Shown here: piece by piece, positions 17,365 through 60,771 of the stretch
How positions within the stretch are numbered: position 1 is the first letter of the stretch
Layout: each line of letters opens with the position of its first letter
From: Oscillatoria sp. FACHB-1407
Lineage (GTDB): Bacteria > Cyanobacteriota > Cyanobacteriia > Elainellales > Elainellaceae
Assembly: GCF_014697545.1 (NCBI RefSeq)
Contig: NZ_JACJSA010000016.1
Coordinates: 62,001 to 126,000, forward strand
DNA length: 64,000 nucleotides
Direction: 5' to 3'
Position numbers and translations under genes: made by a program
Notes under the pieces: model-generated
Databases searched by the model: none
What the model saw: only the letters and a program-made list of their open reading frames with translations
Told to the model about the DNA's origin: nothing

Positions 17365-17368
17365 AGAA

Positions 17369-21885: not shown

Positions 21886-22301
21886 TAGCAAAGAACCTTT
21901 CTGATTAGAAAAAGCTTTTTTTCGCGATCAAATTTTTCCAACTCTTGGTCAAGTTAGAGATTTTAGAGTGGCTTTTTGGATGGAAGCCAAAAATCCGGGC
22001 GCATTTCTTTTAGATGCACTGCACAGTTAAGACTGAGGGCGTAGGCTTCAAATCGAGGCTGGTTTAAAGAGTGCATTCCACCGACAGGTAGAGCAGAAAA
22101 AATATTTGCTGCAAGAGAAGGTGTAACTACATAGTCCTGTTAACAGCTGATCAGAAGGGCGATCGCTCGTCGCAGGATAAGAGACGTAACAACGAATCGA
22201 CTTGGTGTCTTTGTGGCTCAGCGCACGAATAATCTCGCTTTGGTCTTGGTTTAAACCCATACTCTAGCCTCAAAATTAGCTTTTAGAGAACGAGAGCAAT
22301 A
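21886..22301. other. Right-end non-coding part of the recombinase element
   Basis: Presumed promoter and end-binding region upstream of the TnpA-like gene. A 70-codon minus-strand frame (22048-22260) has no recognisable protein character and I do not call it a gene. Confidence 0.35.
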
Positions 22302-30259: not shown

Positions 30260-30898
30260 ATGACAAGCTTGATTCCCGCTACCCCAACTTCTAAAACAGC
30301 CTCAGCAGTCCTGCCAGTAGTGGAAACCTTCCATTCAGTCCAAGGTGAGGGAGTCTGGGCAGGCACGAACGCCTTCTTTATTCGGCTAGCTGGATGTGAC
30401 GTGGGCTGTCCCTGGTGTGACACTAAGCATTCCTGGAATGCGCGTCGCCATCCTCAACGCCTCACTACCGACCTGATTGCGGAAGCTAAAGCAGCAAATC
30501 CGGCGATCGTTGTCATTACGGGTGGCGAACCCCTGATGTATGACCTCTCTTCTCTCAGCAATGGGTTGAGAGCCGCAGGGCTGCGAGTCCATCTAGAAAC
30601 CTCTGGCGCACATCCCTTCAGTGGCAGCTTCGACTGGATTACCTTCTCCCCTAAGCGATCCAAGCCTCCTCACGAAAGCATTTATCCACGAGTCAGTGAA
30701 CTGAAGGTCGTAGTTTCTGAACAGGCTGATTTGACCTGGGCAGAGGATCAGGCAACCAAAATCCCAACTGATGCAATCTGGCTCCTCCAACCAGAATGGG
30801 GCACACCTGATAGCTACTCGCTCATCTTCGAGTACGTTCTCAGCCACCCAGAATGGAGAATCAGCTTGCAGACCCACAAATTCACCAATATTCGATGA
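30260..30898 (+). CDS. queE: 7-carboxy-7-deazaguanine synthase (radical SAM)
   Basis: A 212-residue radical-SAM enzyme that contracts 6-carboxy-tetrahydropterin to 7-carboxy-7-deazaguanine. The cluster motif CDVGCPWCDTKHSWN (C-x3-C-x2-C) is intact, preceded by FHSVQGEGVWAGTNAFFIRL and followed by VVITGGEPLMY. AGGAG overlapping the queD stop region precedes its ATG, so the two genes are closely coupled. Confidence 0.93.
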   Translation: MTSLIPATPTSKTASAVLPVVETFHSVQGEGVWAGTNAFFIRLAGCDVGCPWCDTKHSWNARRHPQRLTTDLIAEAKAANPAIVVITGGEPLMYDLSSLSNGLRAAGLRVHLETSGAHPFSGSFDWITFSPKRSKPPHESIYPRVSELKVVVSEQADLTWAEDQATKIPTDAIWLLQPEWGTPDSYSLIFEYVLSHPEWRISLQTHKFTNIR

Positions 30899-31164: not shown

Positions 31165-31887
31165 ATGAGTGCCCCCAAAGCTGTTGTTTTGTTGTCTGGT
31201 GGTCTGGATTCAGCAACCTCTGCTGCCCAGGCGATCGCTGACGGTTACGAACTGATTGCCCTGTCGCTCCATTATGGTCAACGCCACGATCGCGAACTAA
31301 TTGCCGCTAAACGGGTGGCTGAGCATCTAGGGATCAAAGAACACTTCGTGGTGGATGTGAACCTGGCAAAGTGGGGTGGTTCTGCTCTCACTGACCAGGC
31401 TGTAGACCTGCCCACTGACGGTGTGAAGCCTGGTGTCATTCCCATTACCTATGTACCAGGACGGAATACGGTCTTTCTGGCGATCGCTCTTTCCTTAGCA
31501 GAAGCCAAAGGAGCGGAAGCAATTTATTTGGGGATCAATGCCGTGGACTACTCCGGCTACCCTGACTGCCGACCGGAGTACCTGGACGCTGTTCAGCATC
31601 TTGCCACTCTCTCTTCCAAGGCTGGATTAGAAGGAAATGCGCCTAAGCTCGTTGCTCCATTGGTGATGGATTCCAAAGTAGACATTGTGCAACGGGCATT
31701 GCGATTGGGCTTACCCATCCAACTTACCTGGTCTTGCTATCAGGGAGACGATGAACCCTGTGGGTTGTGTGATTCCTGCCGAATTCGCGATCGTGCCTTG
31801 ATTGAGGCAGGCAGACCAGACTTAGCAACGTCGATTGGACGGGGACTGTATAACCAGGAATTAGCCCCCTCCGTTCCGGTATCCTAG
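31165..31887 (+). CDS. queC: 7-cyano-7-deazaguanine (preQ0) synthase
   Basis: A 240-residue ATP-dependent enzyme that turns 7-carboxy-7-deazaguanine and ammonia into preQ0. The PP-loop is [13 protein letters not shown]; later blocks are [19 protein letters not shown] and [15 protein letters not shown]; the zinc site is [23 protein letters not shown] precedes the ATG. The product preQ0 is the substrate expected for the DpdA-type enzyme encoded 30 bases downstream. Confidence 0.95.
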
Positions 31888-31917: not shown

Positions 31918-34074
31918 ATGCCCCATCCTCGTGTTCTCGTTGTTACCTCCTGTACTGGAGAAAAATGTGCTAAGCCTGAAAATCAACTGACTCTGGCAGA
32001 CTTCAAAGATCCGGAACAGCTTCAGCGACGGGAAGCAGAGTTAGCCGAGTTTGTTTGTGCTGCCGGGAAAATGTATACGGGGATGCAACACCTTCGACTC
32101 ATGGAGGGCGTGCAACTGCTGCGCCAGTCCTTAGGGCAGGATGCAGTAGATGTCGCGATTTTGTCAGCAGGGTACGGGCTGGTTGAAGAGAACCGGGCGA
32201 TCGCTCCCTACGAGGTCACCTTTAACGGGATGAAGGGGTATGAGGTGGATTCGTGGGCGCAACATCTGAACGTGCATGAAGCCTTGGAGCAAGCCGTGCA
32301 GGGCTACGACCTGATATTTCTCCTGCTTGGTGACAACTACTTACGAGCTATTAAGTTACCTGTTGAAACCAAACCAAACCAAACCATTATCGCCCTGACC
32401 TCACAGGGAAGTGCCAAACTCGTTAAAGGGCTGTCTGCCAAAACCTTTGTACTCCCTCTAACAAACCAGGATGCCCAGAAGTATTCCTACGGTTTGGTTG
32501 GATTGAAAGGTTTCCTATTTAAGCGGTTTGCAGAGACAGCTAGTAAAGATTCGGATTGGCTACCAAAGGTTTACCAAACTCCAGAGCTATTCACCGAAAC
32601 TTTAGTTCAGGCGATCGCGCAACTTGAATTGGCGTTACCTGAAGTAGTGGCGCAACCTAAACCAGCTAAAGCATCGAAAGCAAAAACAGCAAAGACCTTA
32701 GAAGTAGAAGACGAAGATGTAGAAGATAGTGAGTTTTTGCCCATTCCAGAAGTTCCTGCGGCTGCCAACTTACACTTAGGAATGCAGTACTTCATCCCCG
32801 AATGGGACGACCATGTAGACCCAGGCTACGACTTCTTAAACAATCGCTTGACTCCAGGTCGCGATCCCTATGCCGATGAAGTTTATGCTCACCAAATCTA
32901 TCCCACCCCTAACTATGACGGGATTTTGGTCTCGAAAGTTGTCGTCGATAGCAGTAAGAAGAAGCGAGCCAGAGTGGAGATTGTAGGCATTCACAACTTC
33001 ATTCGCTTTCCTGGGAAGGTGATGGGAGACTGCGGTGCGTTTGGATACATCAAAGAGGATGTACCTCCTTACAACACAACTGAAATTTTGGATTATTACC
33101 AGAATTTAGGCTTTGACTTTGGCGTAAGCATTGACCACCTGATCGTAGGACCTTTCGCGCAACCTGGAATTCGCGAACGACGCTATGAACTGACGAAGCG
33201 AAATGCTCAAGACTTTCTTAAGAAGCACCAGATGGGAGGATACACGTTTACCCCCATTGGAGTGGCTCAAGGTTGGAGTCCAGAAACCTATGCAGAAGCG
33301 GTCAAGGACAATATCAGCATGGGTTATGACTACATTGCGTTGGGTGGACTTGCCCGTGCCACCAGCAAAGAAATTATTTCTATCCTGGCGGAGATTCGTC
33401 CTCACCTAACTGACAAAACTCGTTTGCACCTGTTTGGGGTAGCACGCATCAATGCAATTCCTGTATTTCGTCATCTGGGAGTTACCAGTTTTGACTCTGC
33501 GAGTCCTTTGCGTCGTGCTTGGTTAGGTTCGGGGGCTAACTACCATACTCTTACAAGCAAGATGTACACAGCCGCTCGGATTCCACCAGTCGATAGTCAT
33601 GGAGTAAGGATCAAACGGTTGCTAGAAGCAGGTGTGTCGGATCAAGATACGCTGAGGGGAATGGAGCAATCGGCTCTGAAGGCTCTGAGAGAATTTGATG
33701 CGGGAACTTTAGGCTTAGAAGCAACATTAGAGGCGTTACTTACCTATGATGAACTACTAGAATTGCCCCGCGATGGTAAAGTAGACCCGATCGATCAGGC
33801 AAAGCGTCGGGTCAAGCATGAGCGGATGTATCGGGATTTGCTCCAAGACAAACCTTGGAAGAACTGTAATTGTGTGATCTGCGAAGAAATCGGTGTTGAG
33901 GTGATTATATTTCGAGGGAACGATCGTAATCGTCGCAGAGGTTTTCACAATACCTATGTGTTCTACAAACGGTTCCAAGAATTGCTGCGACAATTGAAAG
34001 ACCCCTTAACGAACGGTAGCCAGCCTAGTACGGATAATTTGGCTCCGTTGGTAGCTCCAGATGGCGTAGTCTAG
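31918..34074 (+). CDS. dpdA: DpdA-type DNA 7-deazaguanine transglycosylase with fused N-terminal domain
   Basis: A 718-residue protein. Residues 1-250 form an alpha/beta domain beginning VLVVTSCTGEKCAKP, resembling DUF6884-type domains often attached to DpdA. A Lys/Ala/Glu linker (about 250-280) leads to a tRNA-guanine-transglycosylase fold. The first catalytic Asp is D371 in GDCGAFGYI, the nucleophile-position Asp is D526 in SFDSASPLRRAWLG, and the zinc site is C650, C652, C655 (CNCVIC) plus H677. DpdA enzymes exchange guanine in DNA for preQ0; position right after queC supports DNA over tRNA as the target. AAGGAG precedes the ATG. DpdC, which further processes the base, is not seen. Confidence in family is high; activity is inferred. 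Confidence 0.9.
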   Translation: MPHPRVLVVTSCTGEKCAKPENQLTLADFKDPEQLQRREAELAEFVCAAGKMYTGMQHLRLMEGVQLLRQSLGQDAVDVAILSAGYGLVEENRAIAPYEVTFNGMKGYEVDSWAQHLNVHEALEQAVQGYDLIFLLLGDNYLRAIKLPVETKPNQTIIALTSQGSAKLVKGLSAKTFVLPLTNQDAQKYSYGLVGLKGFLFKRFAETASKDSDWLPKVYQTPELFTETLVQAIAQLELALPEVVAQPKPAKASKAKTAKTLEVEDEDVEDSEFLPIPEVPAAANLHLGMQYFIPEWDDHVDPGYDFLNNRLTPGRDPYADEVYAHQIYPTPNYDGILVSKVVVDSSKKKRARVEIVGIHNFIRFPGKVMGDCGAFGYIKEDVPPYNTTEILDYYQNLGFDFGVSIDHLIVGPFAQPGIRERRYELTKRNAQDFLKKHQMGGYTFTPIGVAQGWSPETYAEAVKDNISMGYDYIALGGLARATSKEIISILAEIRPHLTDKTRLHLFGVARINAIPVFRHLGVTSFDSASPLRRAWLGSGANYHTLTSKMYTAARIPPVDSHGVRIKRLLEAGVSDQDTLRGMEQSALKALREFDAGTLGLEATLEALLTYDELLELPRDGKVDPIDQAKRRVKHERMYRDLLQDKPWKNCNCVICEEIGVEVIIFRGNDRNRRRGFHNTYVFYKRFQELLRQLKDPLTNGSQPSTDNLAPLVAPDGVV

Positions 34075-34271: not shown

Positions 34272-34658
34272 GTGGCAGATACATCTGATCTAAAGATCAT
34301 GATTGACATCAGCCAGGTAGATCCCGACCTGGAGCCAGAAGAACTGGAAAGCCTGACAGATAGCCTGAAGAACGAAATTTCAGAATTAGTAGAGGATGCT
34401 GAGTTAGTTCGAGAGTCAGAGATTCCGGAGGGAGGCAAACCTGCTCTAGCAGGTTTTGTGCTGGGGATATTGAAAACGGAGGTGAGTGTCAAGAATATCC
34501 AGGCATTAATGGGAGTTTTGCAGGATCGATTTGGGTCTAAACCGATTGAACTAACGGGTGAAAAGAATGGCAATAAGTTTAGTATCAAAGTGGGCAAGCC
34601 AGAAGATTTGGATCAGGCAGTAGCAGCATTTCAGAAATTGGCTGAGGCGGTTGAGTAA
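34272..34658 (+). CDS. EACC1 (effector-associated constant component 1)
   Basis: A 128-residue protein. It has the EACC1 pattern: an N-terminal half with ISQVDPDLEPEELESLTDSL, LVEDAELVRESEIPEGGKPA, then a C-terminal half with LQDRFGSKPIEL and NGNKFSIKVGKPEDLDQAV. EACC1 proteins accompany caspase- or trypsin-like effectors in prokaryotic conflict systems and probably act as adaptors or assembly factors. The start is GTG at 34272 with AGGAG eight bases upstream. The caspase gene follows 31 bases later, so they form an operon. Confidence 0.82.
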   Translation: MADTSDLKIMIDISQVDPDLEPEELESLTDSLKNEISELVEDAELVRESEIPEGGKPALAGFVLGILKTEVSVKNIQALMGVLQDRFGSKPIELTGEKNGNKFSIKVGKPEDLDQAVAAFQKLAEAVE

Positions 34659-34689
34659 GCGGTTATTTCAGAAATAAAGAGCAAAACCG

Positions 34690-36924
34690 ATGGCAAAAGT
34701 AGCACTCCTGATCGGTGTAACCGATTACAAAATTGAAGGTAGCAATTTAGGTTTTACCAATCTACCCAGTGCGAAGCTGGATGTAGAAGGGATGAAACGG
34801 ATTCTGGAATCTCCAGATTTGGGGGCTTTTGATGAAGTGGAATCTCTGCTGAATCCTACATATTCGGAAATGAGTGGGGCTATAGAGGATTTTTTAGGCA
34901 AGCCTCAGAAGAATGATACTGTCCTACTTTATTTCTCTGGACATGGTGCAAAAGACGGAAAGCGGAGATTGTATTTTGCTGCGAAAGGAACGGTAAAGAA
35001 TGAGAAAGATCAATTAAAGATAACAACGGCTGTATCTTCTCAAGTTGTTAGTGAACAACTGGAAGACTGCAAAGCTACAAAAAAGATTATGATTTTGGAT
35101 TGTTGCTTTAGTGGCGCGATCGATCCCAATGCTAAAGGTGATGATACATCAGAGGTCTTAGAATCATCGCTATCGGAAGCTAAAGGAAGTATTATTCTTA
35201 CGTCTTCTAGTTCTACTGAGATCTCCTACGGTGATGCAACTCAAATGTCGTTTTATACACGCTACCTCGTTCAGGGAGTTGAGAGTGGTGAAGCCGACCG
35301 AGATGCTAATGGTCAGCTTTCTATCAGTGAATTGCACGCTTATGTGACAGCGAAACTGCGAGTAGAAAAAGCAACGATGAATCCTAAAGTTTTCCTTCCA
35401 CGGGAAGAGGGATTTTATAATGCTCCATTTATTAGCGTGCCGATCACTGACCCCAGACAAGCATATCGCAAGAAGGTAAAAGATTACATAGACCGGGGAT
35501 TGGCAAAACAAGGAAAGTTTGATTTCAACATGGAACAGGTGCTAAAAAGTGACCGAGATCAGATTAACCAAGTCAGTAAATCTGAACTTTCACTAGACGA
35601 TGCTAAAGCAATTGAAAACGAACTTTTACATCCGATTCTACAACGTCTGAAGAATCTAAGCGACTATAGAAAAGCTTTTCGTGAACATCTGGAAACTCAA
35701 ACACTAGATCAGTCTCACCAAAGCCTAAAGCTATGGCGAGAGAATGTCTTGAAACTGACCGATGCAGACGTCGCTGAGATTGAGCAAGAGGAGCGGCAAC
35801 GGCAAGAACAACTCAAACGGGAGGCGGCTGAACAGCAACGGCAGGCGGAAGAGGAGGAAAGACAACGGTGGCAATCCGAGCAACTAAGGCAACAGCAAGC
35901 AGCAGAGGCGGACAGACTAAAAGGGAATTATGCCCACTTAGAAGCTCTGCTGAAGGCAGAAAACTGGCAAGAGGCAGACCAGGAAACCGTTAAGCAGATG
36001 TGCCAGATCATGGGGCGACAGCAAGAAGGCTATCTAAAAGTTGAGGATGCTGAGCAGTTTCCCGGTGCTGACATGCGGGCGATCGATCAACTTTGGGTGA
36101 AGTATAGCAACGGCAAGTTTGGCTTCAGTGTTCAGAAAGAAATTTGGCAGCAGTGCAATACCCCCACGAGCTTTGATCTGGAGAAGTTTGGGAAAGAGGT
36201 GATGTGGCTGAAGTTTGTAAATGAGTGGAAATGGAAGATTTACCGTGAATTAACTTGGGATATCTCTGCTCCCAAGGGACACCTCCCGTCGTGGAGAGGG
36301 CTCACGACGGGGAGACGTCATGAGGGGCTAGCATTCGTGGGGAGCGGTATATGGGCGAGGTGGGCAGACGGGGAGGGGTTCCCAGGGGAGAGGATGGAGG
36401 CTCTTCTCTCACGCATTGCAGCAGAAGCAGAAAAAGGGAATTATGCCCACTTAGAAGCTCTGCTGAAGGCAGGAAACTGGCAAGAGGCAGATCAGGAAAC
36501 CTTTAAGCAGATGTGCCAGGTCATGGGGCGACAGCAAGAAGGCTATCTAAAAGTTGAGGATATTGAGCAGTTTCCCTGTGCTGACATGCGGGCGATCGAT
36601 CAACTCTGGGTGAGGTATAGCAACGGCAAGTTTGGCTTCAGTGTTCAGAAAAAAATTTGGCAAGGGTGCGGTAGCCCTACAGAATATAATAAGCAGTGGG
36701 AAAAGTTTGGGATAGAGGTGGGGTGGCGATCGAAGGGGATGATGGGACGGGGGGCATCGTGGAAAGGGTGTGGCGACTTAGCTTTTACCGTAGGTGCTCC
36801 CGTGGGACACCTCCCTTGGAGGGTGGGTTTTGGAGATTGGGTGGTGAGGGGTGAGGTGGGAGAGGTAGGGGTGGAAGTGGAGTGGTGTAGTCTCTTCTCT
36901 CGTGTACGAAGATGTAAACTGTAG
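34690..36924 (+). CDS. Caspase-like protease fused to two GUN4 domains
   Basis: A 744-residue protein. Residues 1-255 form a caspase fold: H85 in LLYFSGHGAKDG and C139 in MILDCCFSGAID are the catalytic pair. Residues 260-400 are helical, ending in a Glu/Gln/Arg-rich coiled coil. Two GUN4 domains follow, starting near residues 411 and 582, each with NWQEADQET, ADMRAIDQLWV and YSNGKFGFSVQK. GUN4 binds porphyrins or bilins and activates Mg-chelatase when free-standing; fused to a protease it may sense tetrapyrroles or hold the effector inactive. EACC1 lies just upstream. Activation, substrate and ligand binding are inferences. Bases 36280-36420 are more GC-rich than the rest. Confidence 0.88.
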   Translation: MAKVALLIGVTDYKIEGSNLGFTNLPSAKLDVEGMKRILESPDLGAFDEVESLLNPTYSEMSGAIEDFLGKPQKNDTVLLYFSGHGAKDGKRRLYFAAKGTVKNEKDQLKITTAVSSQVVSEQLEDCKATKKIMILDCCFSGAIDPNAKGDDTSEVLESSLSEAKGSIILTSSSSTEISYGDATQMSFYTRYLVQGVESGEADRDANGQLSISELHAYVTAKLRVEKATMNPKVFLPREEGFYNAPFISVPITDPRQAYRKKVKDYIDRGLAKQGKFDFNMEQVLKSDRDQINQVSKSELSLDDAKAIENELLHPILQRLKNLSDYRKAFREHLETQTLDQSHQSLKLWRENVLKLTDADVAEIEQEERQRQEQLKREAAEQQRQAEEEERQRWQSEQLRQQQAAEADRLKGNYAHLEALLKAENWQEADQETVKQMCQIMGRQQEGYLKVEDAEQFPGADMRAIDQLWVKYSNGKFGFSVQKEIWQQCNTPTSFDLEKFGKEVMWLKFVNEWKWKIYRELTWDISAPKGHLPSWRGLTTGRRHEGLAFVGSGIWARWADGEGFPGERMEALLSRIAAEAEKGNYAHLEALLKAGNWQEADQETFKQMCQVMGRQQEGYLKVEDIEQFPCADMRAIDQLWVRYSNGKFGFSVQKKIWQGCGSPTEYNKQWEKFGIEVGWRSKGMMGRGASWKGCGDLAFTVGAPVGHLPWRVGFGDWVVRGEVGEVGVEVEWCSLFSRVRRCKL
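35919..36660 (+). repeat. 229-bp direct repeat encoding the two GUN4 N-terminal halves
   Basis: Bases 35919-36147 and 36432-36660 differ at only ten positions by my count, about 96 percent identity. The following C-terminal halves of the two GUN4 domains are clearly more different, so the N-terminal halves were duplicated recently or homogenised by gene conversion. Confidence 0.9.
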
Positions 36925-37512: not shown

Positions 37513-38100
37513 TTATAGAACTTTCAGAAGTCGTTCCAGTGCTGGAAAAAGTTGCTGAATCGTACGATCGCTCATCTCTCTAAACCTCTCCTCCAACCAA
37601 GCTCTCTGTTCCATCACATCAACAGGGCTAGGCGATAGAAATAGAGGTTCTTCTTTGAGATCCGTATAGCTGTAGGGTCTAAAAAACTTGCAGATCCTTA
37701 AAGCTTTATCGGAGTCTGGAAAAAATTTACCACTAGCCCACCGAGAAACAGTGGTTGCGTCAACCCCGATCGCCTGAGCAAATTCTTGTTTGCGCCCCTT
37801 CTTTAGCTCCTTCACCGACCGAAGCAAGTATCTTAGGTTCTCCTCGTAGATGCTAATGCCGCTTTGATCCAGTAAATTTGTTTGCCAAAATGCCACAACG
37901 TCATCTTCGGGCAAATTTAGCTGGTTAGCGATCGCCTGCAATTCCTCCTGACGCAGTTGTTCTTCCCCCCGAAGAAGCCTTTCTGCCCTCAACAGGTCGC
38001 AGCCTAACCAGTTAGCGAGTTTGTTTGCCCAGGTTTGCCTGGGTTCATTCTCCCGCCATAAGAGAAAACACAAGTTTTGCGAAGTTGATCCGTCAGGCAT
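37513..38100 (-). CDS. XRE-family helix-turn-helix regulator
   Basis: A 195-residue protein with two HTH-like segments: LRQEELQAIANQLNLPEDDV at about residues 49-68 and the stronger GRKQEFAQAIGVDATTVSRW with SGKFFPDSDKAL at about residues 100-135. The C-terminal helical region may dimerise. The gene is divergent from the helicase operon with 109 bases between, and that spacer holds repeated TTATTAGCGTAA sites, so this protein is the obvious candidate regulator of both itself and the operon. Confidence 0.82.
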   Translation of the reverse strand: MPDGSTSQNLCFLLWRENEPRQTWANKLANWLGCDLLRAERLLRGEEQLRQEELQAIANQLNLPEDDVVAFWQTNLLDQSGISIYEENLRYLLRSVKELKKGRKQEFAQAIGVDATTVSRWASGKFFPDSDKALRICKFFRPYSYTDLKEEPLFLSPSPVDVMEQRAWLEERFREMSDRTIQQLFPALERLLKVL

Positions 38101-38138
38101 AGGGTATCACACCACTGCCCATAGTATCTTCTTATAGA

Positions 38139-38192
38139 TTATTAGCGTAAATAGAGTTGTGCGCTAATTTTCTGACATTATTATTAGCGTAA
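38139..38192. promoter_or_regulatory. Operator-like repeats controlling the XRE gene and helicase operon
   Basis: TTATTAGCGTAA occurs exactly at 38139-38150 and 38181-38192, start to start 42 bases, four helical turns. An inverted core GCGCTAA lies between them at 38161-38167. A -35-like TTGTGC (38157-38162) and a -10-like TATTAT (38179-38184) facing the helicase operon overlap these sites, so a bound repressor would block transcription. Confidence 0.55.
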
Positions 38193-38209: not shown

Positions 38210-40588
38210 ATGGTAGCAGACTTACAGCTTTCTCCTTGGGAGAGTTCCCTTTCCCAAGCACAGCAGGAGATTCTGCAAAGCGGCTTGTTGACTTCTGGCT
38301 TCAACTGCATTCTTCAGATGCCAACAGGTAGCGGCAAAACCTGGTTGGCAGAGCAAGCGATCGCTCATACTCTCAACCAAAACCGTCGTGCTATCTATCT
38401 CACTCCCCTCCGTGCCCTTGCTAGTGAGTTAACAACTCGGTGGCAGAAGCGTTTTGCGCCCAATCAAGTTGGCATCTTTACCGGAGATTATGCCAACAGT
38501 AACTATCCGGTCTCCTACCAAAATGCTCAATTGCTGGTCATGACCCCAGAAAAGCTAGATGTCTGCACCCGTAATTGGCGTAATCACTGGTCGTGGCTTC
38601 CTGATGTCGATTTAGTTGTTGTAGATGAATTCCATTTATTAGGGGACTCTAATCGGGGTGCGCGGCTGGAAGCTGCTTTGCTCAGGTTTATGCGCCTTAA
38701 TCCGTTCGTCCGGGTCATTGGTTTGTCTGCCACATTGGGAAATCGGCAGGAGCTTGCTGACTGGCTACGAGGACTCGACTACTGCTCCAATCAACGGGTT
38801 GTTCCTCTCCAATGGAATGTGGTGCGATACAAACGAGCGCAGGACAAGCCTGATCTCCTCATTGGAGAGCTTCAGCGCAACTTGGCGACTGGCGGAAAAA
38901 GCCTAGTGTTTGTTCAGAGCCGCAGACGGGCTGAGTGGCTGGCTCAAACGTTACAAGAAGCAGGCTTTCATGCGGCTCATCACCATGCTGGACTCGATCG
39001 CTCTTCTCGTAGCCAAATAGAGACACAATTCCGAAACGGGAACCTGGATGTCCTGATCGCCACGGCAACTTTGGAAATGGGTTTGAACTTACCTGCACGT
39101 CAGGTTGTACTTTATGACCTACAAGGCTTTGATGGAACTGACTTCGTACCCCTTCCAGTAAACAATGTCTGGCAACGAGCAGGTCGGGCAGGTCGTCCGG
39201 GACTAGATCCTGTTGGGGAAGTGGTTCTTCTTGCTCCCGTTTGGGATCGGCAGGCAGACCACTATGCCAAGGGACAGTTTGAGCCGATACGGTCTGGACT
39301 TAGTTCAGCGATCGCCCTAGCTGAGCAAGTGATCACCGAGATTGCCAGTGGACTATGCCGCACGCACGCTCAACTGGAGGCTGTTTTTAGCCGAACATTG
39401 GCAGCAGTGCAGAACAGACTGTCTTCAATTGATCGAGTAGTCGATGAAATGTTACAGGCTGGGATGCTGGTGCAGCAGGAAGTTTCTGGCTATCTTCAGG
39501 CAACACGATTAGGCTTCATCGCAGTACGCCACCTGATTTCCCCTGCTACCGTTCAACTCTTTCAGAGAGTTTTTCAGGAATACCCAGACCTAACGTTTTT
39601 AGATTTGCTCCTTATTGCTGTTAGCAGCATCGACTGCCAACCACTGATTCCTGTCGATTACGAGCAGCTAGATGAACTGGCAACAGCCCTCTCCACCGAA
39701 CCCTCCGTTCTTCTGACGTTGCCCCAACAGGAGTTGAGCCAGCTACTTGGGATCGATGGCAAACAGCTTTTAGCTGCTATGAACACGGCATTGGTAGCCC
39801 GTACTTGGACTCGGTTAGGAGACGCAGAGCAGGTTGCAGAAATGCGAGGCTGTTATGCCTTTGAAGTGCAATGCCTATGCGACTCGGTTCAGCGGTTGCT
39901 CCTGGCGATGAAGGCGATTCTGCAAGTTTTGGAATCAGAAAAAGCGATCGCACAAGATCCAGAACGGGTGCCACTGATTGAACGAATTGGAGCACTGGAA
40001 AGGATGGTTAGTGGTGGGTTAGATGAGGGTGCCGCAACACTAACCTTAATTCGAGGAATTGGCGCAAAAACAGCAAAACGACTCAAGCAAGCAGGAATTG
40101 CTGATATCGAAGATTTGGCGTTAGCAGAGCTAGAGGAATTAGTAGCAATCCCCGGAATCTCAGAAAAGCGGGCAACTCAGTGGCTAGAGCAGGCTTTAGA
40201 AGTTGTGGGTAGCCACTCATCTGCCTTCCGCTACAGAGAGGAGCCTACCCAAAATCTACTGACTCGAACTCAATTTCCGATTGACATTGACCCCTATCGG
40301 CTACGTCGGGCAATGGATTTGAGAATTGTGAACCGAGAAGGAACATCCTTCAGAGTAGTGGGCGGAACCGATCCGCACACGGTCACAGTTTCCTCAAAAA
40401 AACAAGGATGTGATTGTCCTGATTCGGCTAAAGGGCATACCTGCAAACATATTCTGGCTGTACTGCTGCATCTGGGCGATAAGACTATACGGAACTTAGT
40501 ACAAGCCCTATCTAATTCCGTCGCTTGTGGGTTAGACCTGTTACAGCTATGGGTAGGAACACCTTTAGGCTCTGTGAGGTGGGGTTAA
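38210..40588 (+). CDS. Hel308/Ski2-like DNA helicase with HhH and SWIM zinc finger
   Basis: A 792-residue SF2 helicase. The motor occupies about residues 1-400: Walker A MPTGSGKTWLAEQ, TPLRALASE, TPEKLD, Walker B VVVDEFHLLGD, GLSATLGN, TLEMGLNLPARQVV, and motif VI WQRAGRAGRPG. Winged-helix and ratchet-like regions follow. Near residue 620 tandem helix-hairpin-helix units appear (LIRGIGAKTAKRLKQAG, VAIPGISEKRATQWL). Near residues 730-750 is a SWIM finger, CDCPDSAKGHTCKH. Hel308-type enzymes unwind 3-prime-tailed DNA at forks; the SWIM finger may contact DNA or a partner. The stop overlaps the start of the next gene in TAATG. Role here is inferred to be opening or scanning DNA for the TGT-fold partner. 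Confidence 0.88.
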   Translation: MVADLQLSPWESSLSQAQQEILQSGLLTSGFNCILQMPTGSGKTWLAEQAIAHTLNQNRRAIYLTPLRALASELTTRWQKRFAPNQVGIFTGDYANSNYPVSYQNAQLLVMTPEKLDVCTRNWRNHWSWLPDVDLVVVDEFHLLGDSNRGARLEAALLRFMRLNPFVRVIGLSATLGNRQELADWLRGLDYCSNQRVVPLQWNVVRYKRAQDKPDLLIGELQRNLATGGKSLVFVQSRRRAEWLAQTLQEAGFHAAHHHAGLDRSSRSQIETQFRNGNLDVLIATATLEMGLNLPARQVVLYDLQGFDGTDFVPLPVNNVWQRAGRAGRPGLDPVGEVVLLAPVWDRQADHYAKGQFEPIRSGLSSAIALAEQVITEIASGLCRTHAQLEAVFSRTLAAVQNRLSSIDRVVDEMLQAGMLVQQEVSGYLQATRLGFIAVRHLISPATVQLFQRVFQEYPDLTFLDLLLIAVSSIDCQPLIPVDYEQLDELATALSTEPSVLLTLPQQELSQLLGIDGKQLLAAMNTALVARTWTRLGDAEQVAEMRGCYAFEVQCLCDSVQRLLLAMKAILQVLESEKAIAQDPERVPLIERIGALERMVSGGLDEGAATLTLIRGIGAKTAKRLKQAGIADIEDLALAELEELVAIPGISEKRATQWLEQALEVVGSHSSAFRYREEPTQNLLTRTQFPIDIDPYRLRRAMDLRIVNREGTSFRVVGGTDPHTVTVSSKKQGCDCPDSAKGHTCKHILAVLLHLGDKTIRNLVQALSNSVACGLDLLQLWVGTPLGSVRWG

Positions 40589-41526
40589 TGGCAATGCAAG
40601 CACCTGCGGCTAACTTGAAAAGGCGATCGCTCAAAACTCGACGGGGAGATATTCCTTTTCCTGCCTATGTTCCTGTGACGACCTTTGGCGACAAATATCC
40701 ATTAGATAAGCTAATCCAGCCTTACCTACCTCGATTAGCTTCAGCCATCATGGTTAGCTACCACTACGCCAAGGAGGTCTCGGTAGACAAACTGCCCCGG
40801 TTGCCCTTATTTGTTGATTCTAGTGGTTTTGCAGCCCTCTTTGCTGGCACAGAAATCTGCGAGCAGGACGGATTAGGCGTTTTGAAGATTCCGCAGGGTG
40901 AGGGTTCAGAAACAGTTCATCCACGGGACGTGCTGACGCTGCAAGAGGCGATTGCTGATGTCGCCTTTACTCTGGATTTTCCGATTCCACCCAGTCTAGA
41001 GTTAGCTGAAGCTCGAACCCGTCAACGGCTGACCATTGCCAACGCTCACTGGGCACTCCAAAATCGACGCAGACGAGACTTACCTCTCTACGCCTGTATC
41101 CAAGCATGGAATGTGGATTCGGCAAGAGACTGCGCGAGGAAGTATGCAAAAGCGGGTTTTGATGGAGTAGCGATCGGGGGATTGGTACCCAGAGCAAAGG
41201 ATCACTCGCTCGTGCTATCAATAGTCGAAGTCGTGCGTAGTGAGATTGGAGAGTTGCCTCTGCACGTACTGGGGTTGGGCAACCTTGAGCTTGTTCGGGA
41301 TCTCTATAAAGCTGGCGTAGACTCAGTAGACAGCAGTTCCTACGTCAAATATGCTGCCGATGGCAAACTGTTGGCTAATCCAGCTTTTCAGCTTGCGGAC
41401 CCAACCGTGACCGATCGCCTGCATTTAGCTCTTTGCAACTTGGCAACTGCGACTGGAAAAACCTTACCCCTTTCAACGTCAGAAATTCTCTTTTCAACCT
41501 TTTCTACGGAATCCCGCTCATCGTGA
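40588..41526 (+). CDS. Compact TGT-fold (DpdA-like) transglycosylase
   Basis: A 312-residue protein with a queuine-tRNA-ribosyltransferase-type barrel and little else. Matches to the family are in order: IMVSYHYAKE, D77 in LFVDSSGFAALF (the DSGGFQ position), PLYACIQAWN, AGFDGVAIGGL, HVLGLGNLELV, and D248 in GVDSVDSSSY (nucleophile position). The CxCxxC zinc site seen in DpdA and bacterial TGT is absent. It is a second, distinct TGT-fold protein beside the dpdA operon. The ATG overlaps the helicase stop (TAATG) with GAGGTGGGG upstream, and its end overlaps the next start (GTGA). This strict coupling with two helicases points to DNA as substrate; the base inserted is unknown. Confidence 0.85.
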   Translation: MAMQAPAANLKRRSLKTRRGDIPFPAYVPVTTFGDKYPLDKLIQPYLPRLASAIMVSYHYAKEVSVDKLPRLPLFVDSSGFAALFAGTEICEQDGLGVLKIPQGEGSETVHPRDVLTLQEAIADVAFTLDFPIPPSLELAEARTRQRLTIANAHWALQNRRRRDLPLYACIQAWNVDSARDCARKYAKAGFDGVAIGGLVPRAKDHSLVLSIVEVVRSEIGELPLHVLGLGNLELVRDLYKAGVDSVDSSSYVKYAADGKLLANPAFQLADPTVTDRLHLALCNLATATGKTLPLSTSEILFSTFSTESRSS

Positions 41527-43868
41527 GACCCATCCATTGCGGTACATCAGGCACTTTCCAAACCCCTAACGGGATAACTTGGGCTGACCTGGATTTGGAA
41601 CCTCACTGGCAGAAGGCGATCGCTATCCTAAATCCTGGAACCCAACCTCGCCCAGCGCAAGTTCTAGCTTTGGGGGAGCAGAAGATCCTGAAGCATTCCC
41701 GCAATCTGATTGTTTCGGCTCCAACCAATAGCGGTAAGAGTTTGCTTGGCTTGTTGGTATTGCTTGATGCTGTGAGGCGAGGAGGTCGAGCATTGCTGTT
41801 AGAGCCGCTAAGGGCATTGGCACGAGAGAAGGCAGACGAACTAGAAAGCGTATCAGATGCTCTTGGTTTGGAGTTGGGAATAAAGCTGTCGGTGCAAATC
41901 TCCACAGGCGATTACCGTTTAGAGGATGAACTGCTTTCAGACCCGCCCCCCGGAGGAGAAATCATCGTTGCGACCCCAGAACGAGTGGAAGCTTTACTCC
42001 GTAACCCTGCCAATGCCGAATGGCTAAAAACAATCAAAGCTGTTTGTGTCGATGAAGCTCATCTAATCAGTTCCCCGCAACGAGGACTGACGCTAGAGTG
42101 CTTGATTACGTCCCTCCTCTGCCTTCAAAACCCACCCAGACTGGTTCTCTTGTCAGCAACCTTAGGTGATTTGGAACCTGCTCAAACCTGGTTAGCTCCC
42201 TGCGATGTGGTGCGTGTGGAGGAAAGGCAACCACCTCTGGACAAGTGGGCGATCGCCCTTACCGAAGATGATGATGCGAACGATACCGTTCTTTCCTTGA
42301 CTGCCAACCACTTACAAGACCAGAAGGCTCAGATCCTGATTTTTGTTTACCAAACCCGATCGACCCAACATTTAGTAAAACTGCTGAATGACAAGTTGGG
42401 CACTACATTAGGAGATTTAGGGGCTTTGGCGTATCACGCCCAAATGAGCCAACAGCAACGGGAGAAAGTTCGACAAGCGTTCCTGGCTGGACAGTCCAGG
42501 GTAATGGTAACAACAATGGCTCTGGCATTAGGAATCAATCTGCCTGCGACCCACGTACTAATTCGGGACAATACCTTTCCAGGAGTCGGTCGGCTGAGTA
42601 CATCTGAGTTACTGCAAATGATGGGTAGGGCAGGACGAGGTGATCGCCCCGGAACGGCTGCTGTGCTAGTGCGCCCGAAAGACGGGTGGCGGGTTGAGGA
42701 ATTAGTGACAGCCCTCCAAACAGAGGAACTTCCCTCGTTGCAGTCTGCTCTGGAAAAAGGGACGGGTCGTCCCGTTCAATCTGGTGAGATGCCAGCGATC
42801 GCTCCCCAAGTGGCTGCCCTACTGTCTCGTTGGCATGAGCGAGGAACGACAACAGAAGAGTTGAAGACGTTTTTGGGGCGATCGCTAGGTGGGCAAAACT
42901 TAGTGAATCAGGTTGATCAAGGATTAGCCTGGTTAGAAGGTCATTGGCTGGCGTATCGGGAACCAGAACAAGGACGGTACTTTTTGACGGTGCTGGGCAA
43001 GAAGGCAACTCGCGCGGTTCTGCCGTTGCCCATTGCAGCCAGCTACGCCCAACTGCTACGGGATTTAATGAGCGTTGATCCAGATGATGAGTTACTGAAG
43101 CAGTGGCGATCGCTCGATCATTTGCTGATCTTGAATCTTCTGTCCGAACGTCCACCTAACTTAAGGCGTTACAGTGCCAAACTTATGCAACAGGTAGATG
43201 CTTGGTGCGAAGCACATCCTGCCCAAACCCCATTGCTCTTCCGAAAGTGGATTTGGGGACAGCCTAGCAACTCTCGTGCTTCTGAAGTGCTAGGGTCACT
43301 AGGGCTACAGGCTCCCAAAAATGGCAAAGAAGCTGAGGAATGGGCACATCGAACTGGCTACCTCGCCATGTTTCGGTCAATTGTCTTGTGGGAGCGATCG
43401 CAGGGACTCAAGCTCGAAGAAGTGGAGCGTCAATTCAGTGTCCAGGGCTTAGAAGGAATTGAGGAACGTTGGCGTGATGAGTTGCTATGGCTACTGGCTG
43501 GATTAGCAAAACTATTGGACGTTCGCACGTTCTACTTTCACCTTAAGGGTAACTGCCAAGCTGACTTGAGACGAGTGAAAAGAATGAAGCTTTGCTTGAA
43601 GCAGATGGAAAACCAGATTTACAAGTTGCAGGAACAGTTGAAGTATTGTTCTCCTCTAGGTTCTTTACTATATGAAATTCGTAGATTTGCTTCTCAAGGC
43701 AACATCAAAACCAAAGTTGGTTTCCAGTCGATTCGCAAGCTAGAAGAGGCTGGGATTGTTAGCTTAAAAGAGTTAATTTCTGTAGAGATTGAGGATTTAA
43801 TGAAACTGGGAATTCACCGTAGACTAGCTGAGCAGGTTAAGACGTATGTGCGGCGACGGTTGGGGTAG
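41523..43868 (+). CDS. Second SF2 (Ski2-like) helicase of the operon
   Basis: A 781-residue helicase. Walker A is APTNSGKSLLGLLVLLDAV, followed by EPLRALAREKADEL, TPERVEALL, Walker B CVDEAHLIS, LLSATLGDL, ALALGINLPATHVL and motif VI LQMMGRAGRGDRPG. The C-terminal half is helical with winged-helix-like and HhH-like parts (VGFQSIRKLEEAGIVSLKEL). The frame opens at 41433, but the GTG at 41523 overlaps the preceding stop in GTGA and is the natural coupled start. It differs in sequence from the first helicase of the operon, lacks the SWIM finger, and is not a recent duplicate. Confidence 0.86.
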   Translation: MRPIHCGTSGTFQTPNGITWADLDLEPHWQKAIAILNPGTQPRPAQVLALGEQKILKHSRNLIVSAPTNSGKSLLGLLVLLDAVRRGGRALLLEPLRALAREKADELESVSDALGLELGIKLSVQISTGDYRLEDELLSDPPPGGEIIVATPERVEALLRNPANAEWLKTIKAVCVDEAHLISSPQRGLTLECLITSLLCLQNPPRLVLLSATLGDLEPAQTWLAPCDVVRVEERQPPLDKWAIALTEDDDANDTVLSLTANHLQDQKAQILIFVYQTRSTQHLVKLLNDKLGTTLGDLGALAYHAQMSQQQREKVRQAFLAGQSRVMVTTMALALGINLPATHVLIRDNTFPGVGRLSTSELLQMMGRAGRGDRPGTAAVLVRPKDGWRVEELVTALQTEELPSLQSALEKGTGRPVQSGEMPAIAPQVAALLSRWHERGTTTEELKTFLGRSLGGQNLVNQVDQGLAWLEGHWLAYREPEQGRYFLTVLGKKATRAVLPLPIAASYAQLLRDLMSVDPDDELLKQWRSLDHLLILNLLSERPPNLRRYSAKLMQQVDAWCEAHPAQTPLLFRKWIWGQPSNSRASEVLGSLGLQAPKNGKEAEEWAHRTGYLAMFRSIVLWERSQGLKLEEVERQFSVQGLEGIEERWRDELLWLLAGLAKLLDVRTFYFHLKGNCQADLRRVKRMKLCLKQMENQIYKLQEQLKYCSPLGSLLYEIRRFASQGNIKTKVGFQSIRKLEEAGIVSLKELISVEIEDLMKLGIHRRLAEQVKTYVRRRLG

Positions 43869-45998: not shown

Positions 45999-47738
45999 CT
46001 ATAACTGGTTAATCAGTTGAGGAATCTCGTCAGGATAAACGATGATATCCCAGCCAGACGAGGAGAGTGTTTGGAGGTGTCGATCGCTCCAATCCCCATC
46101 CACAATCAGGGCTAACTGAGTGACTCCAGCACGGGGGGTAAAAGTTTTTGTAGCTGGATGATATTGATATTTAACACTACGTGCTCTAGCAGAGAGTTCT
46201 TTAGTTTTGTCATTAGGATGGCTAGCGTGGGCACTTTTCCAATGAATTAGAGTGCTGCCAACCTTGACGAAAGGAGTCGTTGCGCTGTTTTTGCCTGTAC
46301 CCGCATATTCATTTACCCAACCTATGTAGGGAACTTTGGGGCTGTAGGGTTTGCCTTGCTTCGTCAACTCAGCCTCCAGTAGCCAAAGCAGTGGCTCAAA
46401 GTTTCGGTAGGGAATTAGCCGATCTTCCAGATTTTCTTTGATCACCCACTGTTCCACTTTAGTTCTGAGTTTTCCAATGTCCGAATGACTAACATTTTGT
46501 GCAAAGCGTTTGGCAAGCCCAGTAGCTAAAGCTTGCAAACGTTCAGGTGATAGCATCTTCTCTCGCTGGATAAATGGCGGAATCACGAAACCACCTGCCC
46601 CAAAATCTGGAACTCCTGTATCGGTCGCCAGTTGAGCAAGACCATACCCTTGAAGTCTGCCTGATTTCGCTTTCAATAAGGAAATCATAATTTCGTAAAT
46701 CCAGACCTTCTCATCCCCTGCTACGCCCGATAACCCTGCTGGGTCGTTAAAGCATTGAACCAGCAATTGCTCTAGTGAATCTGGATCAGTCACCTGGTCA
46801 TAGTGGTTCTCGATAAACTCTACATGAGCATCGACCCGTCCCAAATCTCGCAACGGGTTAATCCAGATACTCATCGACTGGGGAGCTTTCTGCAACACGG
46901 TTTCACAGGCTGTAGCCCCAAGCAGAGCCAAAGCTCCGTCGATTTCTTTGTCAGCCACTTTCGCACCGACCAGTGACTTCTTAAAGAAACCCAAATCCCA
47001 GGCATACTGAGGTACGTTGTCTACATGAACTCCCGTTGGTTTGTTATAGCCCGCATAAACGAGTTGCCGCAGTTGCGGTTCCAACACCAGCAGCTTACCC
47101 AGCCCACGACGAACCGATGTATTCTTGGCTTTTGGTGGATTATGAGGTTTGGCGTAATCAATCTGCATCAATGCCCATACGGGATCAAGCTCGGTTTTGC
47201 GCCGTTGCAGGGCTTGAGCAAGATCTTGAGCGAGAGAGGCGATCGCAGATGATAAACCTTGATCTGATTTCAAGCAAGTATCAAGAAAGGCAAGCTTTTC
47301 TTCTTTATTTATTAAATTTCTGCGGGCGGCTAAAGCTATCCACTCAAAGACTTTATTAGAGTATGGATAGTCATCAATATGAAATCCATAATCTACTATT
47401 TCATCAATCAATGATCTAACCATCTCTTTTTGTCTTGATAAAGCGTAGATGCTGATTAAAGCTGCTGTCGAATGCGTATGTGATTTGCCTTCAAAAACTT
47501 CAGCCAAATTACGCCACATCTTCATGTGACTATTGTGAGACGCTCCGCTTGCAGTAACTAAGATTAAATGAGATGGCTCTTCTGAATTCAAGCCAATGGT
47601 GAAATCCGGATTGATAGTGAGAGTACTGGGTTTTTGGTTCCAATAAATATTCCCTTCTATCCCTGAAATTTCTACAGCCCTTTGTAAGGCTTTGTAAACG
47701 ATGACCTCAGCCAATATTCCTCTAATTTCATTCGCCAT
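45999..47738 (-). CDS. Putative restriction-endonuclease-like protein (paralog of the 701-residue gene)
   Basis: A 579-residue protein. The N-terminus resembles a PD-(D/E)xK fold: Glu in ILAEVIVYKALQRA, then NPDFTIGLN, HLILVTASGASHNSHMKMWR and NLAEVFEGKS. The middle 350 residues are helical and unrecognised. The C-terminus has DKTKELSARARSVKY and QLALIVDGDWSD with LSSSGWDII. Both ends match the 701-residue protein at 58.1-60.2 kb (PDIVI, ILYVTHWSD, KFWRTWEEL; DKTKELAGRCRAL, QLALVLDGDWD, AGWDWV). The pair flanks the sacsin-UvrD module. Nuclease activity is inferred from these motifs only. Confidence 0.6.
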   Translation of the reverse strand: MANEIRGILAEVIVYKALQRAVEISGIEGNIYWNQKPSTLTINPDFTIGLNSEEPSHLILVTASGASHNSHMKMWRNLAEVFEGKSHTHSTAALISIYALSRQKEMVRSLIDEIVDYGFHIDDYPYSNKVFEWIALAARRNLINKEEKLAFLDTCLKSDQGLSSAIASLAQDLAQALQRRKTELDPVWALMQIDYAKPHNPPKAKNTSVRRGLGKLLVLEPQLRQLVYAGYNKPTGVHVDNVPQYAWDLGFFKKSLVGAKVADKEIDGALALLGATACETVLQKAPQSMSIWINPLRDLGRVDAHVEFIENHYDQVTDPDSLEQLLVQCFNDPAGLSGVAGDEKVWIYEIMISLLKAKSGRLQGYGLAQLATDTGVPDFGAGGFVIPPFIQREKMLSPERLQALATGLAKRFAQNVSHSDIGKLRTKVEQWVIKENLEDRLIPYRNFEPLLWLLEAELTKQGKPYSPKVPYIGWVNEYAGTGKNSATTPFVKVGSTLIHWKSAHASHPNDKTKELSARARSVKYQYHPATKTFTPRAGVTQLALIVDGDWSDRHLQTLSSSGWDIIVYPDEIPQLINQL

Positions 47739-48640: not shown

Positions 48641-49831
48641 TCAATCTAAAGACTTGATTTCTGGTAATTTTGGAGTACTCTCCTTTGTGTAACTTGGGCA
48701 AAATGTTCGAGCGTCACAGGCAGTGCAGGTACTCTCATCCTCCGCATTTTTCTCCCACGTGGACAATACCCGCCCCTGCTGCAACTCCTTCCCCCGGCAA
48801 ATTTCAATCCGGGCAACAGCATTGTCAAACTCCTGTAATGCATGAGCGATCGTTGCTTCCGACACTGGTAGAACTCGCAAAGCCCGCTTCAGTCGAAACT
48901 CAAACGGCAAAATCGGAGGCTCTTCCCCCTTACGATCTTTCCACTCCCGCAGCAACTGTTCTGTTTCACTTCCCGGTTCTGGCACTACATCCGTTTCCCC
49001 ACTAGCAATCTCCTCCCGTAGTCGCCGCAGGTCTCCCTTCGTCGGCAGCAACTCATTCAGGTAGATAATCACTCCAGCCATGACGGGCAAACTATCTTCC
49101 TGTGCCTGTCGCAAGTGAGCATAGGTTTGAGCCTGCCAACCATAAATGTCCCAAAAGCTGGGCTTACCGGGGTCAATTGGCTTCTGCGACGGGCGACGCA
49201 TTCCCTTGTAGTCGATAATCACCTCAAACTCACCGGGAGGCTTGAGCGATCGCGCCTTAAAATCTGTTAGAAGCTCTTTCACCAACAGATTGCCCCACAG
49301 ATCCGGGTCGTAAAGCTGCACATTCGTCACAACGTCAATTACGCCCATCATCTCGTAGCGATCGGCTTCTCGGAAGCGATACTGAGCCGGAATCTGAGCA
49401 AGTGGTAGTGGTCGTGCCCCTGTCAACCGAACCTCTGCCCGATGAATCAGGGGAAACAATTGCGGTCCCAATTCGTTTACAGCCGCTTTAGCCCTGGCGT
49501 ATCCTAATTCCTCCAGGTCTGTTCCCCAGGGAAAAAGCTGCTGCGCTGCTAGTCGTTTCTTGATGAGTTCGCAGATTTCGGCGATCGTCTCCTCTGACCA
49601 GGGGGGCAACTCCACTGCTCCCCTTTTCCGAGACTCATCAAATCGGCGATAGGACTCCTCTAACACTCCATGAATAAACTGACCAAACCATGCCTGTACG
49701 GGGCGAGTTGAAGGTAGTTTGCCAATGCGCGTGTATCGATATTGAAGCCCGCACCGCAGGAAGCCAAGCAAATCTCCAGTCAGACTGTAGGAAGGAAGTG
49801 CATAAACCGCAGGACGTTTAGAAAGTTGCAT
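48641..49831 (-). CDS. Cas4/AddB-like PD-(D/E)xK nuclease with Fe-S cysteines
   Basis: A 396-residue RecB-family nuclease. Motifs in order: Cys in GFLRCGLQYRYTRIGKL, His in FGQFIHGVLEESY, Asp in MGVIDVVTNV, D-x-K in VIIDYKGMRR, the Gln motif in YGWQAQTYAHL, and a terminal C-x2-C-x5-C in CTACDARTFCPSY. One N-terminal plus three C-terminal cysteines is the 4Fe-4S arrangement of Cas4 and AddB. The ATG overlaps the sacsin-like gene stop (TAATG) with AAGGAGG upstream, so the two are translationally coupled. Together with the UvrD-like helicase it resembles an AddAB-type helicase-nuclease pair. Confidence 0.85.
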   Translation of the reverse strand: MQLSKRPAVYALPSYSLTGDLLGFLRCGLQYRYTRIGKLPSTRPVQAWFGQFIHGVLEESYRRFDESRKRGAVELPPWSEETIAEICELIKKRLAAQQLFPWGTDLEELGYARAKAAVNELGPQLFPLIHRAEVRLTGARPLPLAQIPAQYRFREADRYEMMGVIDVVTNVQLYDPDLWGNLLVKELLTDFKARSLKPPGEFEVIIDYKGMRRPSQKPIDPGKPSFWDIYGWQAQTYAHLRQAQEDSLPVMAGVIIYLNELLPTKGDLRRLREEIASGETDVVPEPGSETEQLLREWKDRKGEEPPILPFEFRLKRALRVLPVSEATIAHALQEFDNAVARIEICRGKELQQGRVLSTWEKNAEDESTCTACDARTFCPSYTKESTPKLPEIKSLD

Positions 49832-60737: not shown

Positions 60738-60771
60738 CGTGCGTCGTAGAGTGGTGCTTAACCGTTAAATT

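Follow-up and report, generated by a model that had tools for sequence, protein, structure and literature searches.

The stretch of DNA analysed here, which we call the window, comprises 64,000 nucleotides of Oscillatoria sp. FACHB-1407 (contig NZ_JACJSA010000016.1, positions 62,001 to 126,000), whose genome measures 8.13 Mb. It contains three consecutive genes, two of which encode superfamily 2 (SF2) helicases, Hel1 and Hel2, and the middle one a compact protein with the fold of tRNA-guanine transglycosylases (TGT), here named TGT2. They are part of a conserved gene set, present in several phyla and in part on plasmids, that links a TGT-fold protein retaining its active-site residues with a Ski2-like helicase as well as with nuclease and 7-deazaguanine genes. 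The trio consists of the following genes:

38210–40588, + strand: Hel1, a Ski2/Hel308-like SF2 helicase with a helix-hairpin-helix (HHH) domain and a C-terminal SWIM zinc finger, 792 amino acids (aa); from Pfam, PDB chains and motifs
40588–41526, + strand: TGT2, a compact TGT-fold protein without a zinc motif, 312 aa; from Pfam, alignment and a structure model
41523–43868, + strand: Hel2, a second Ski2/Hel308-like SF2 helicase, 781 aa counted from GTG; from Pfam, PDB chains and motifs

An earlier note on this DNA described the three genes as joined by TAATG and GTGA overlaps, and both the coordinates and the overlaps proved correct. Hel1 starts with ATG at 38210, and its stop codon (40586–40588) forms TAATG with the TGT2 start codon, ATG at 40588; a TTG at 40525 is a TGT2 start only by mechanical open reading frame (ORF) calling. 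At the second junction, GTGA, the TGT2 stop codon (41524–41526) overlaps the Hel2 start codon, GTG at 41523.

TGT2 scored above the cut-offs of the Pfam TGT model (70.3 vs 26.3 bits, E = 2e-19) and of TIGR00449 (74.1 vs 47.6 bits), and below those of the DpdA model NF041059 (56 vs 200 bits) and the tRNA Tgt model TIGR00430 (49.6 vs 306.75 bits). Residues D77, D130, G197, G198 and D248 are invariant in all 18 TGT2 homologues, and Q172 is retained in 17. In the alignment, these columns line up with conserved columns of both tRNA Tgt and DpdA; from the TGT literature, we take the roles of the retained residues to be base recognition and nucleophile. The Asp positions 77 and 248 pointed out in the earlier note are thus correct for the 312-aa protein, and so is its statement that TGT2 has no zinc site. 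The CxCxxC motif is not present in any of the 18 homologues; it occurs in 23 of 25 DpdA rows, the other two being truncated sequences, and in seven of eight full-length tRNA Tgt rows. A DSGG[FY] motif is common to TGT2 and tRNA Tgt. The structure model of TGT2 (predicted local distance difference test, pLDDT, 87.2) matched T. maritima Tgt (2ash) with Z = 29.8 and 2.3 Å over 275 residues.

In a tree of 51 rows, from which four Tgt fragments and L115 had been left out, TGT2, DpdA and Tgt each formed a single clade, with support of 94/93 (just below the 95 mark of the tree tool), 100/99 and 100/100, respectively; long branches meet in this tree, so the branching order among the three clades is unsure. 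TGT2 is therefore distinct from the product of the upstream dpdA gene (31918–34074), as had been claimed. Clustering with tRNA enzymes, a check proposed at the same time, was not what the tree returned: TGT2 lies in a clade separate from tRNA Tgt, which weakens the case for TGT2 as a tRNA enzyme. The genome itself has three TGT-fold genes, tRNA Tgt (510 bits), TGT2 (68 bits) and DpdA (46 bits). A further TGT-fold protein of 620 aa (locus L034, 910–2772) has no helicase among the neighbours listed and forms a long branch outside TGT2 and DpdA.

Both helicases have intact P-loop, DE[FA]H, SATL and QxxGRAGR motifs. The Pfam domains of Hel1 are DEAD, Helicase_C, HHH_5 and SWIM, and those of Hel2 are DEAD and Helicase_C. 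The best solved relatives of Hel1 are ASCC3 (8alz, the top-scoring PDB chain, E = 5e-80), SLH1, Brr2 and Hel308 (2p6r, E = 1e-64), and those of Hel2 are Hel308 (9b15, E = 4e-37) and Brr2-like helicases. Hel1 reached 229 bits on the Hel308 model NF040935, under its cut-off of 1200. Scores on Dpd models were 34 bits for Hel1 and 35 bits for Hel2 on DpdF (cut-off 550), and 32 bits for Hel1 on DpdE (cut-off 500).

We searched 388 genomes of the window's class, with strong matches defined as E ≤ 1e-57 for TGT2 and E ≤ 1e-60 for each helicase. TGT2 was found in six genomes (12 at E ≤ 1e-8), Hel1 in five and Hel2 in four. All five Hel1 genomes and all four Hel2 genomes were among the six with a strong TGT2 match (hypergeometric probabilities 8e-11 and 2e-8, ignoring kinship). 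DpdA, over its cut-off in 18 of the 388 genomes, was present in five of the same six (probability 7e-7, again ignoring kinship). The association of the trio is more than chance, and this strict co-occurrence weakens the possibility that the genes are chance neighbours. Rare co-occurrence elsewhere had been named in the earlier note as a finding that would count against its reading; the reading stood.

When genome contigs were scanned with TGT2, seven further loci emerged, in Pseudanabaena, Singulisphaera, Noviherbaspirillum, a betaproteobacterial metagenome-assembled genome (MAG), a Holophagaceae MAG, a 'Deltaproteobacteria' MAG (placed in Myxococcota for the tree) and Desulfosporosinus. Hel1 (41–63% identity) and Hel2 (38–60%) are both present in all seven, Hel2 of L051 comprising only 150 residues ahead of the contig end. 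Within the class of Noviherbaspirillum, the query genome was the only one of 229 to match at E ≤ 1e-30. Plasmid copies from Nostoc (two), Picosynechococcus (one) and Deinococcus (three) were added; two versions reside on plasmids of cyanobacteria, 38 and 76 kb in size. This gave 18 distinct TGT2 loci, with L048, which is the L057 contig, counted once. TGT2 together with Hel1 was seen in seven phyla and the full trio in six. In 15 of the 18 loci TGT2 directly adjoins Hel1, overlaps and fusion included, and in a 16th the Septu pair PtuA/PtuB (L057:7886–9927) lies between the two. In the GC-rich Deinococcus stretches, where genes were read by tblastn, TGT2 overlaps Hel1 in D. ficus and D. grandis, and on the D. 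gobiensis plasmid TGT2 shares a single 430-aa frame with the N-terminal part of Hel1, a natural fusion. TGT2 had no match in the phage collection, and 15 pattern matches in viral contigs of IMG/VR yielded none that was confirmed; a viral origin of TGT2 was accordingly set aside. Its match to phrog_7068 in PHROG was weak (25 bits).

The three-gene unit of the earlier note is conserved but was drawn too small, since a number of further genes accompany the trio. In the window, these are:

29859–30248, + strand: QueD-like, preQ0 synthesis; best NCBIfam match QueD, 77 bits, under the cut-off of 89
30260–30898, + strand: QueE-like, preQ0 synthesis; best NCBIfam match QueE, 129 bits, under the cut-off of 200
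31165–31887, + strand: QueC, preQ0 synthesis; NCBIfam QueC, 223 bits, cut-off 150
31918–34074, + strand: DpdA with an N-terminal DUF6884/DpdC-like domain; NCBIfam DpdA, 484 bits, cut-off 200
37513–38100, − strand: XRE/helix-turn-helix (HTH) regulator-like gene, divergent from Hel1; HTH_3, E = 2e-9
38136–38192: operator-like repeats in the XRE–Hel1 gap; two copies of ATTATTAGCGTAA at a distance of 42 nt, plus an inverted partial copy
45999–47738, − strand: R1, tentatively a predicted two-lobed PD-(D/E)xK-like endonuclease; structure model matches
48641–49831, − strand: PD-(D/E)xK nuclease; Pfam PDDEXK_1, E = 2e-12
55555–57915, − strand: UvrD-like helicase; Pfam UvrD-helicase, E = 2e-50
58093–60198, − strand: R2, a diverged full-length R1 homologue; hhalign probability 99, 559 columns
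60201–60737, − strand: HerA C-terminal fragment; PADLOC HerA, E = 3.5e-16

Twelve loci carry Hel2 (the window, L049–L057, L081 and L083). XRE is found in 11 of them, DpdA in 10, HerA in nine, NurA-like in eight, R1 or R2 in eight, UvrD in seven and PD-(D/E)xK in six, counting the L053 HerA at 25% identity and one PD-(D/E)xK piece of 81 aa; L051, L052 and L057 stop near the trio, and partner misses there carry little weight. The XRE gene thus belongs to the conserved unit, beyond the trio. Comparison of 12 XRE–Hel1 intergenic stretches revealed no common operator motif. DpdA exceeds its NCBIfam cut-off in nine of the 12 distinct TGT2 genomes (G161 and G388 are the same genome, counted once). 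Its N-terminal domain in the window matches DUF6884 (E = 3.5e-11) and, weakly, the PADLOC DpdC model (E = 1e-7 over residues 7–103); DUF6884 is named as the domain of dpdC in an excerpt of PMC11888242.

R1 had no Pfam, NCBIfam or PADLOC match. Its structure model (pLDDT 85.9) has two lobes, for which the best VIA-align matches were mostly nucleases, with Can2, BpuSI and McrBC (residues 1–181) and BsoBI, PspGI and BstEII (residues 198–579) at Z = 7.3–8.6. The nuclease reading rests on Z values of about 8, which are middling by the scale of the tool; lower rows included unrelated folds such as receiver domains and methylmalonyl-CoA mutase, and Foldseek gave no match at E ≤ 0.001. R1 and R2 are therefore only tentatively predicted to be endonucleases. 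Complete HerA-like (L103:1836–3626) and NurA-like (L103:3635–4858) genes are located just beyond the window end. The name NurA-like comes mainly from the PCC 73109 record; the L049 copy scored 17 bits against Pfam NurA, whose cut-off is 21, and the gene of the window genome had no NCBIfam match. HerA of L049 passes Pfam DUF87, and HerA of the window genome is far under the NCBIfam HerA cut-offs. The order across this end (60201–63975 and L103:1836–4858) is the HerA C-terminal fragment, a 1067-aa LysM-like gene, the complete HerA-like gene and the NurA-like gene; this order looks like the product of a partial duplication or insertion.

For the six TGT2 loci without Hel2 (L058, L059, L082 and L084–L086), the fetched stretches gave no match at E ≤ 1e-8 to DpdA, XRE, HerA, NurA-like, R1, R2, UvrD or PD-(D/E)xK of the window. 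Hel2 matches of 27–31% in L059, L084 and L086 were taken as Hel1 cross-matches and not counted. L059 and the Deinococcus plasmids retain Hel1 with TGT2, and the genome of L058 has DpdA and QueDEC on a separate contig, L099. In L082, TGT2 adjoins dnaB, with DNA methyltransferase genes near; in L058, one small ORF separates it from a phage-type DNA polymerase; in L084, it occurs with Hel1 near ribonucleotide reductase (RNR) and another UvrD gene. L058 and L100, which come from one genome, both hold TGT2, complete near the phage-type polymerase in the former and cut by the contig edge in the latter; in both, a convergent gene that matches phrog_8638 comes next.

The island resembles Dpd systems (dpdA–K) in its preQ0 genes, DpdA, candidate DpdC-like domain, several helicases and nucleases, and marking logic. 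It differs in having no DpdB match and no DpdD–K recognised in the window, in its second TGT with two Ski2-like helicases, and in an arm made up of R1/R2, HerA, NurA-like and UvrD/PD-(D/E)xK. Among 15 window proteins compared with NCBIfam, the only Dpd model over its cut-off was DpdA (for Hel1 and Hel2, among the matches listed); PADLOC gave only weak DpdF and DpdH matches, and DpdE–H profiles built from L106 found no strong match in the window. The DpdB model NF041060 matched none of the 12 TGT2 genomes. However, it also matched none of 13 genomes of the class that have DpdA with the same N-terminal region and no trio, and this miss therefore does not discriminate trio islands. The idea that the helicases replace DpdB is likewise unsupported; DndB-like genes occur in trio-less DpdA loci (L035, L036, L037, L108, L112 and L113) and in the window. 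Four trio-less loci (L036, L106, L107 and L109) carry DpdE, F, G and H, with DpdH partly cut by stretch ends in three; DpdH exceeds its NCBIfam cut-off in trio-less loci, and the L106 genes were named by PADLOC. L112 and L035 also carry UvrD and PD-(D/E)xK. Several sets of partners thus occur alongside DpdA, one of them marked by the trio. Taken as a whole, the island has the look of 7-deazaguanine restriction-modification of a Dpd-like type, in which the restriction arm is a different one and a second transglycosylase, linked to helicases, is added. Close to the Noviherbaspirillum island (L089), a DpdE-like SNF2 gene reached only 61 bits on DpdE (cut-off 500) and was rejected as such; L100 holds a similar candidate. 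L035 (10572–13632) has a 334-aa DpdA-like protein beside full DpdA, with UvrD, PD-(D/E)xK and DndB-like genes, and is another two-TGT island of different make-up.

With roughly even probability, we read the trio as a helicase-coupled DNA transglycosylase in a Dpd-like 7-deazaguanine restriction-modification island. QueDEC would make preQ0, and DpdA with its fused DpdC-like domain would place dPreQ0/dADG in DNA. TGT2 would be a second, unlike DNA-guanine exchanger that works where Hel1 has opened the DNA and that extends or maintains the mark of the host. Hel2 may be a second motor or a coupling to restriction, XRE would set expression, and R1/R2, HerA with NurA-like, and UvrD/PD-(D/E)xK would cut and degrade unmarked DNA. 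Observed, and in favour of this reading, are the strict co-occurrence of the three genes, the adjacency of Hel1 and TGT2 with one natural fusion, DpdA in most of the Hel2-bearing loci, the TGT fold of TGT2 with its pocket and nucleophile residues, and a tRNA Tgt of its own in the genome. What we infer is that bases are exchanged on DNA, which base is used and in what strand state, what each nuclease does, and to which arm the trio belongs. The earlier note had proposed that the helicases open or scan DNA for base exchange, or restrict unmarked DNA, leaving 'modify' and 'restrict' side by side; helicase-assisted base exchange on DNA appears to be the best supported reading. A DNA-modifying role is favoured over cutting chiefly because TGT2 also occurs without these nucleases, mostly beside replication genes of plasmids or phage-like stretches. 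The settings in L082, L058 and L084 (dnaB, phage-type polymerase, RNR) are those in which a modifier of the element's own DNA might sit. The likeness of Hel1 to ASCC3, a helicase that opens up DNA so that AlkBH3 can repair bases in it (according to a portion of PMC7608686), supports a helicase-fed base enzyme as an analogy, not as functional evidence. In ASCC3–AlkBH3 and in Lhr, too, an SF2 helicase is fused with a base-acting enzyme or delivers DNA to one, but these are repair enzymes and the comparison is one of analogy only.

Several observations weigh against this reading. The need for a second enzyme is unexplained, since DpdA should already install 7-deazaguanine. The window TGT2 carries Ser79, two residues past D77, in place of a Gly common to its 17 homologues, and this single copy may therefore be altered. 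In profile comparison, TGT2 aligned over 249 columns to Tgt (E = 7e-22) and over 146 columns to DpdA (E = 2e-17). For L059 (with flanks) and the Deinococcus plasmids, which have TGT2–Hel1, the fetched stretch yielded no homologue of the window's DpdA or QueC/D/E that could supply the base. Finally, Hel2 was seen only in the larger islands, the chief argument for a role in restriction. It is indeed possible, if doubtful, that the trio serves the restriction arm as its recognition side: Hel1 and Hel2 would scan DNA, TGT2 would attack unmodified guanine, leaving an abasic site or a covalent trap, and R1/R2, HerA, NurA-like and UvrD/PD-(D/E)xK would process the product. Within the fetched stretches, homologues of the restriction genes (E ≤ 1e-8) are present in 10 of the 12 Hel2-bearing loci (the other two, L051 and L052, being short contigs) and in none of the six Hel2-less ones, and an excerpt of PMC10953399 presents E. 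coli Lhr as a precedent for helicase–glycosylase coupling. On the other hand, nuclease-less TGT2 or TGT2–Hel1 on elements with replication genes would then attack its own element, and TGT2 retains the pocket residues that serve in base exchange.

That the island is a plain, already described Dpd system with diverged dpd genes is unlikely. Such a system would account for DpdA over its cut-off, the DpdC-like domain, QueDEC, the helicases and the nucleases, but Hel1 and Hel2 score 32–35 bits on DpdE/DpdF, and four other DpdA loci have clear DpdE, F, G and H; the absence of DpdB matches points the same way but, as noted, is non-discriminating. Less probable still is an eraser or counter-defence role, in which TGT2 would swap 7-deazaguanine back to guanine or edit marks on incoming DNA. 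Occurrence of TGT2 on elements without the other genes is what such an enzyme might show, yet in 10 loci it shares the island with DpdA and, to our knowledge, known TGTs do not readily remove 7-deazaguanine again. We regard modification of tRNA or other RNA, with the helicases acting on RNA, as very improbable: the TGT fold, the DSGG[FY] motif, the longer profile match to Tgt and the existence of RNA helicases among Ski2-like enzymes speak for it, and against it stand the separate clade, the tRNA Tgt that the genome already has, the missing zinc motif and the DNA-restriction neighbourhood. The island might further be proposed, tentatively and with somewhat less than even confidence, as a new 7-deazaguanine restriction-modification class. 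It would have two unlike DNA transglycosylases (the DpdA–DpdC-like fusion, and zinc-less TGT2 physically coupled to a Ski2-like helicase feeding it opened DNA) and a HerA/NurA-like/UvrD/two-lobed-endonuclease arm; plasmids and phage-like elements would have taken up TGT2, alone or together with Hel1, as a means of marking the DNA that they replicate.

By what route enzymes of the TGT fold gain access to guanines of double-stranded DNA is, as far as we know, unsettled, and a family whose TGT gene overlaps that of a helicase, or is fused with it, makes this access directly testable. Moreover, surveys demanding DpdA plus DpdB, as GATOR-GC did according to an excerpt of PMC11888242, should overlook trio islands.

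Several other described systems share components with this one. BREX-related capture (BRC) also has HerA together with a TGT-fold protein, but it is described in a section of PMC12839542 with PglZ, DUF6079, STAND and DUF4007; PglZ, DUF6079 and DUF4007 had no Pfam match among the 24 window proteins scanned. BRIGADE likewise combines 7-deazaguanine genes with helicases and a nuclease; its helicases belong to the YprA family and its hosts, in the part of PMC12458937 that covers them, are halophilic archaea only, whereas the window system has Ski2/Hel308-like helicases and is bacterial. DpdA2 of phage nt-1 is, according to a portion of PMC6884629, a TGT-fold DNA-side enzyme far from DpdA, but it is a phage gene, whereas TGT2 is unmatched in the phage collection. 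As for Hachiman, Hel1 scored highest in PADLOC against HamB (150 bits), but no HamA was among the matches listed for the window proteins scanned. Within the open-licence literature covered, we recognised no description of this gene composition.

Other genes surround these components. On the − strand at 16399–21891, a DUF6262 protein is followed by three consecutive tyrosine recombinase genes, an arrangement like that of recombinase-in-trio or Tn554-like elements, and one that suggests mobility. Adjoining the recombinases, 8 kb upstream of DpdA, is a DndB-family gene (22575–23696, − strand; Pfam DndB E = 1.6e-54; NCBIfam DndB 198 bits, under the cut-off of 328). Between DpdA and the trio, a 128-aa gene is followed by a caspase-like gene with GUN4 domains (34272–36924, + strand), matching NCBIfam caspase_w_EACC1 and PADLOC PD-T4-6. 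Amid the restriction-arm genes, a 1864-aa sacsin/NOV protein is encoded at 49831–55425 on the − strand (PADLOC TmtA, 770 bits).

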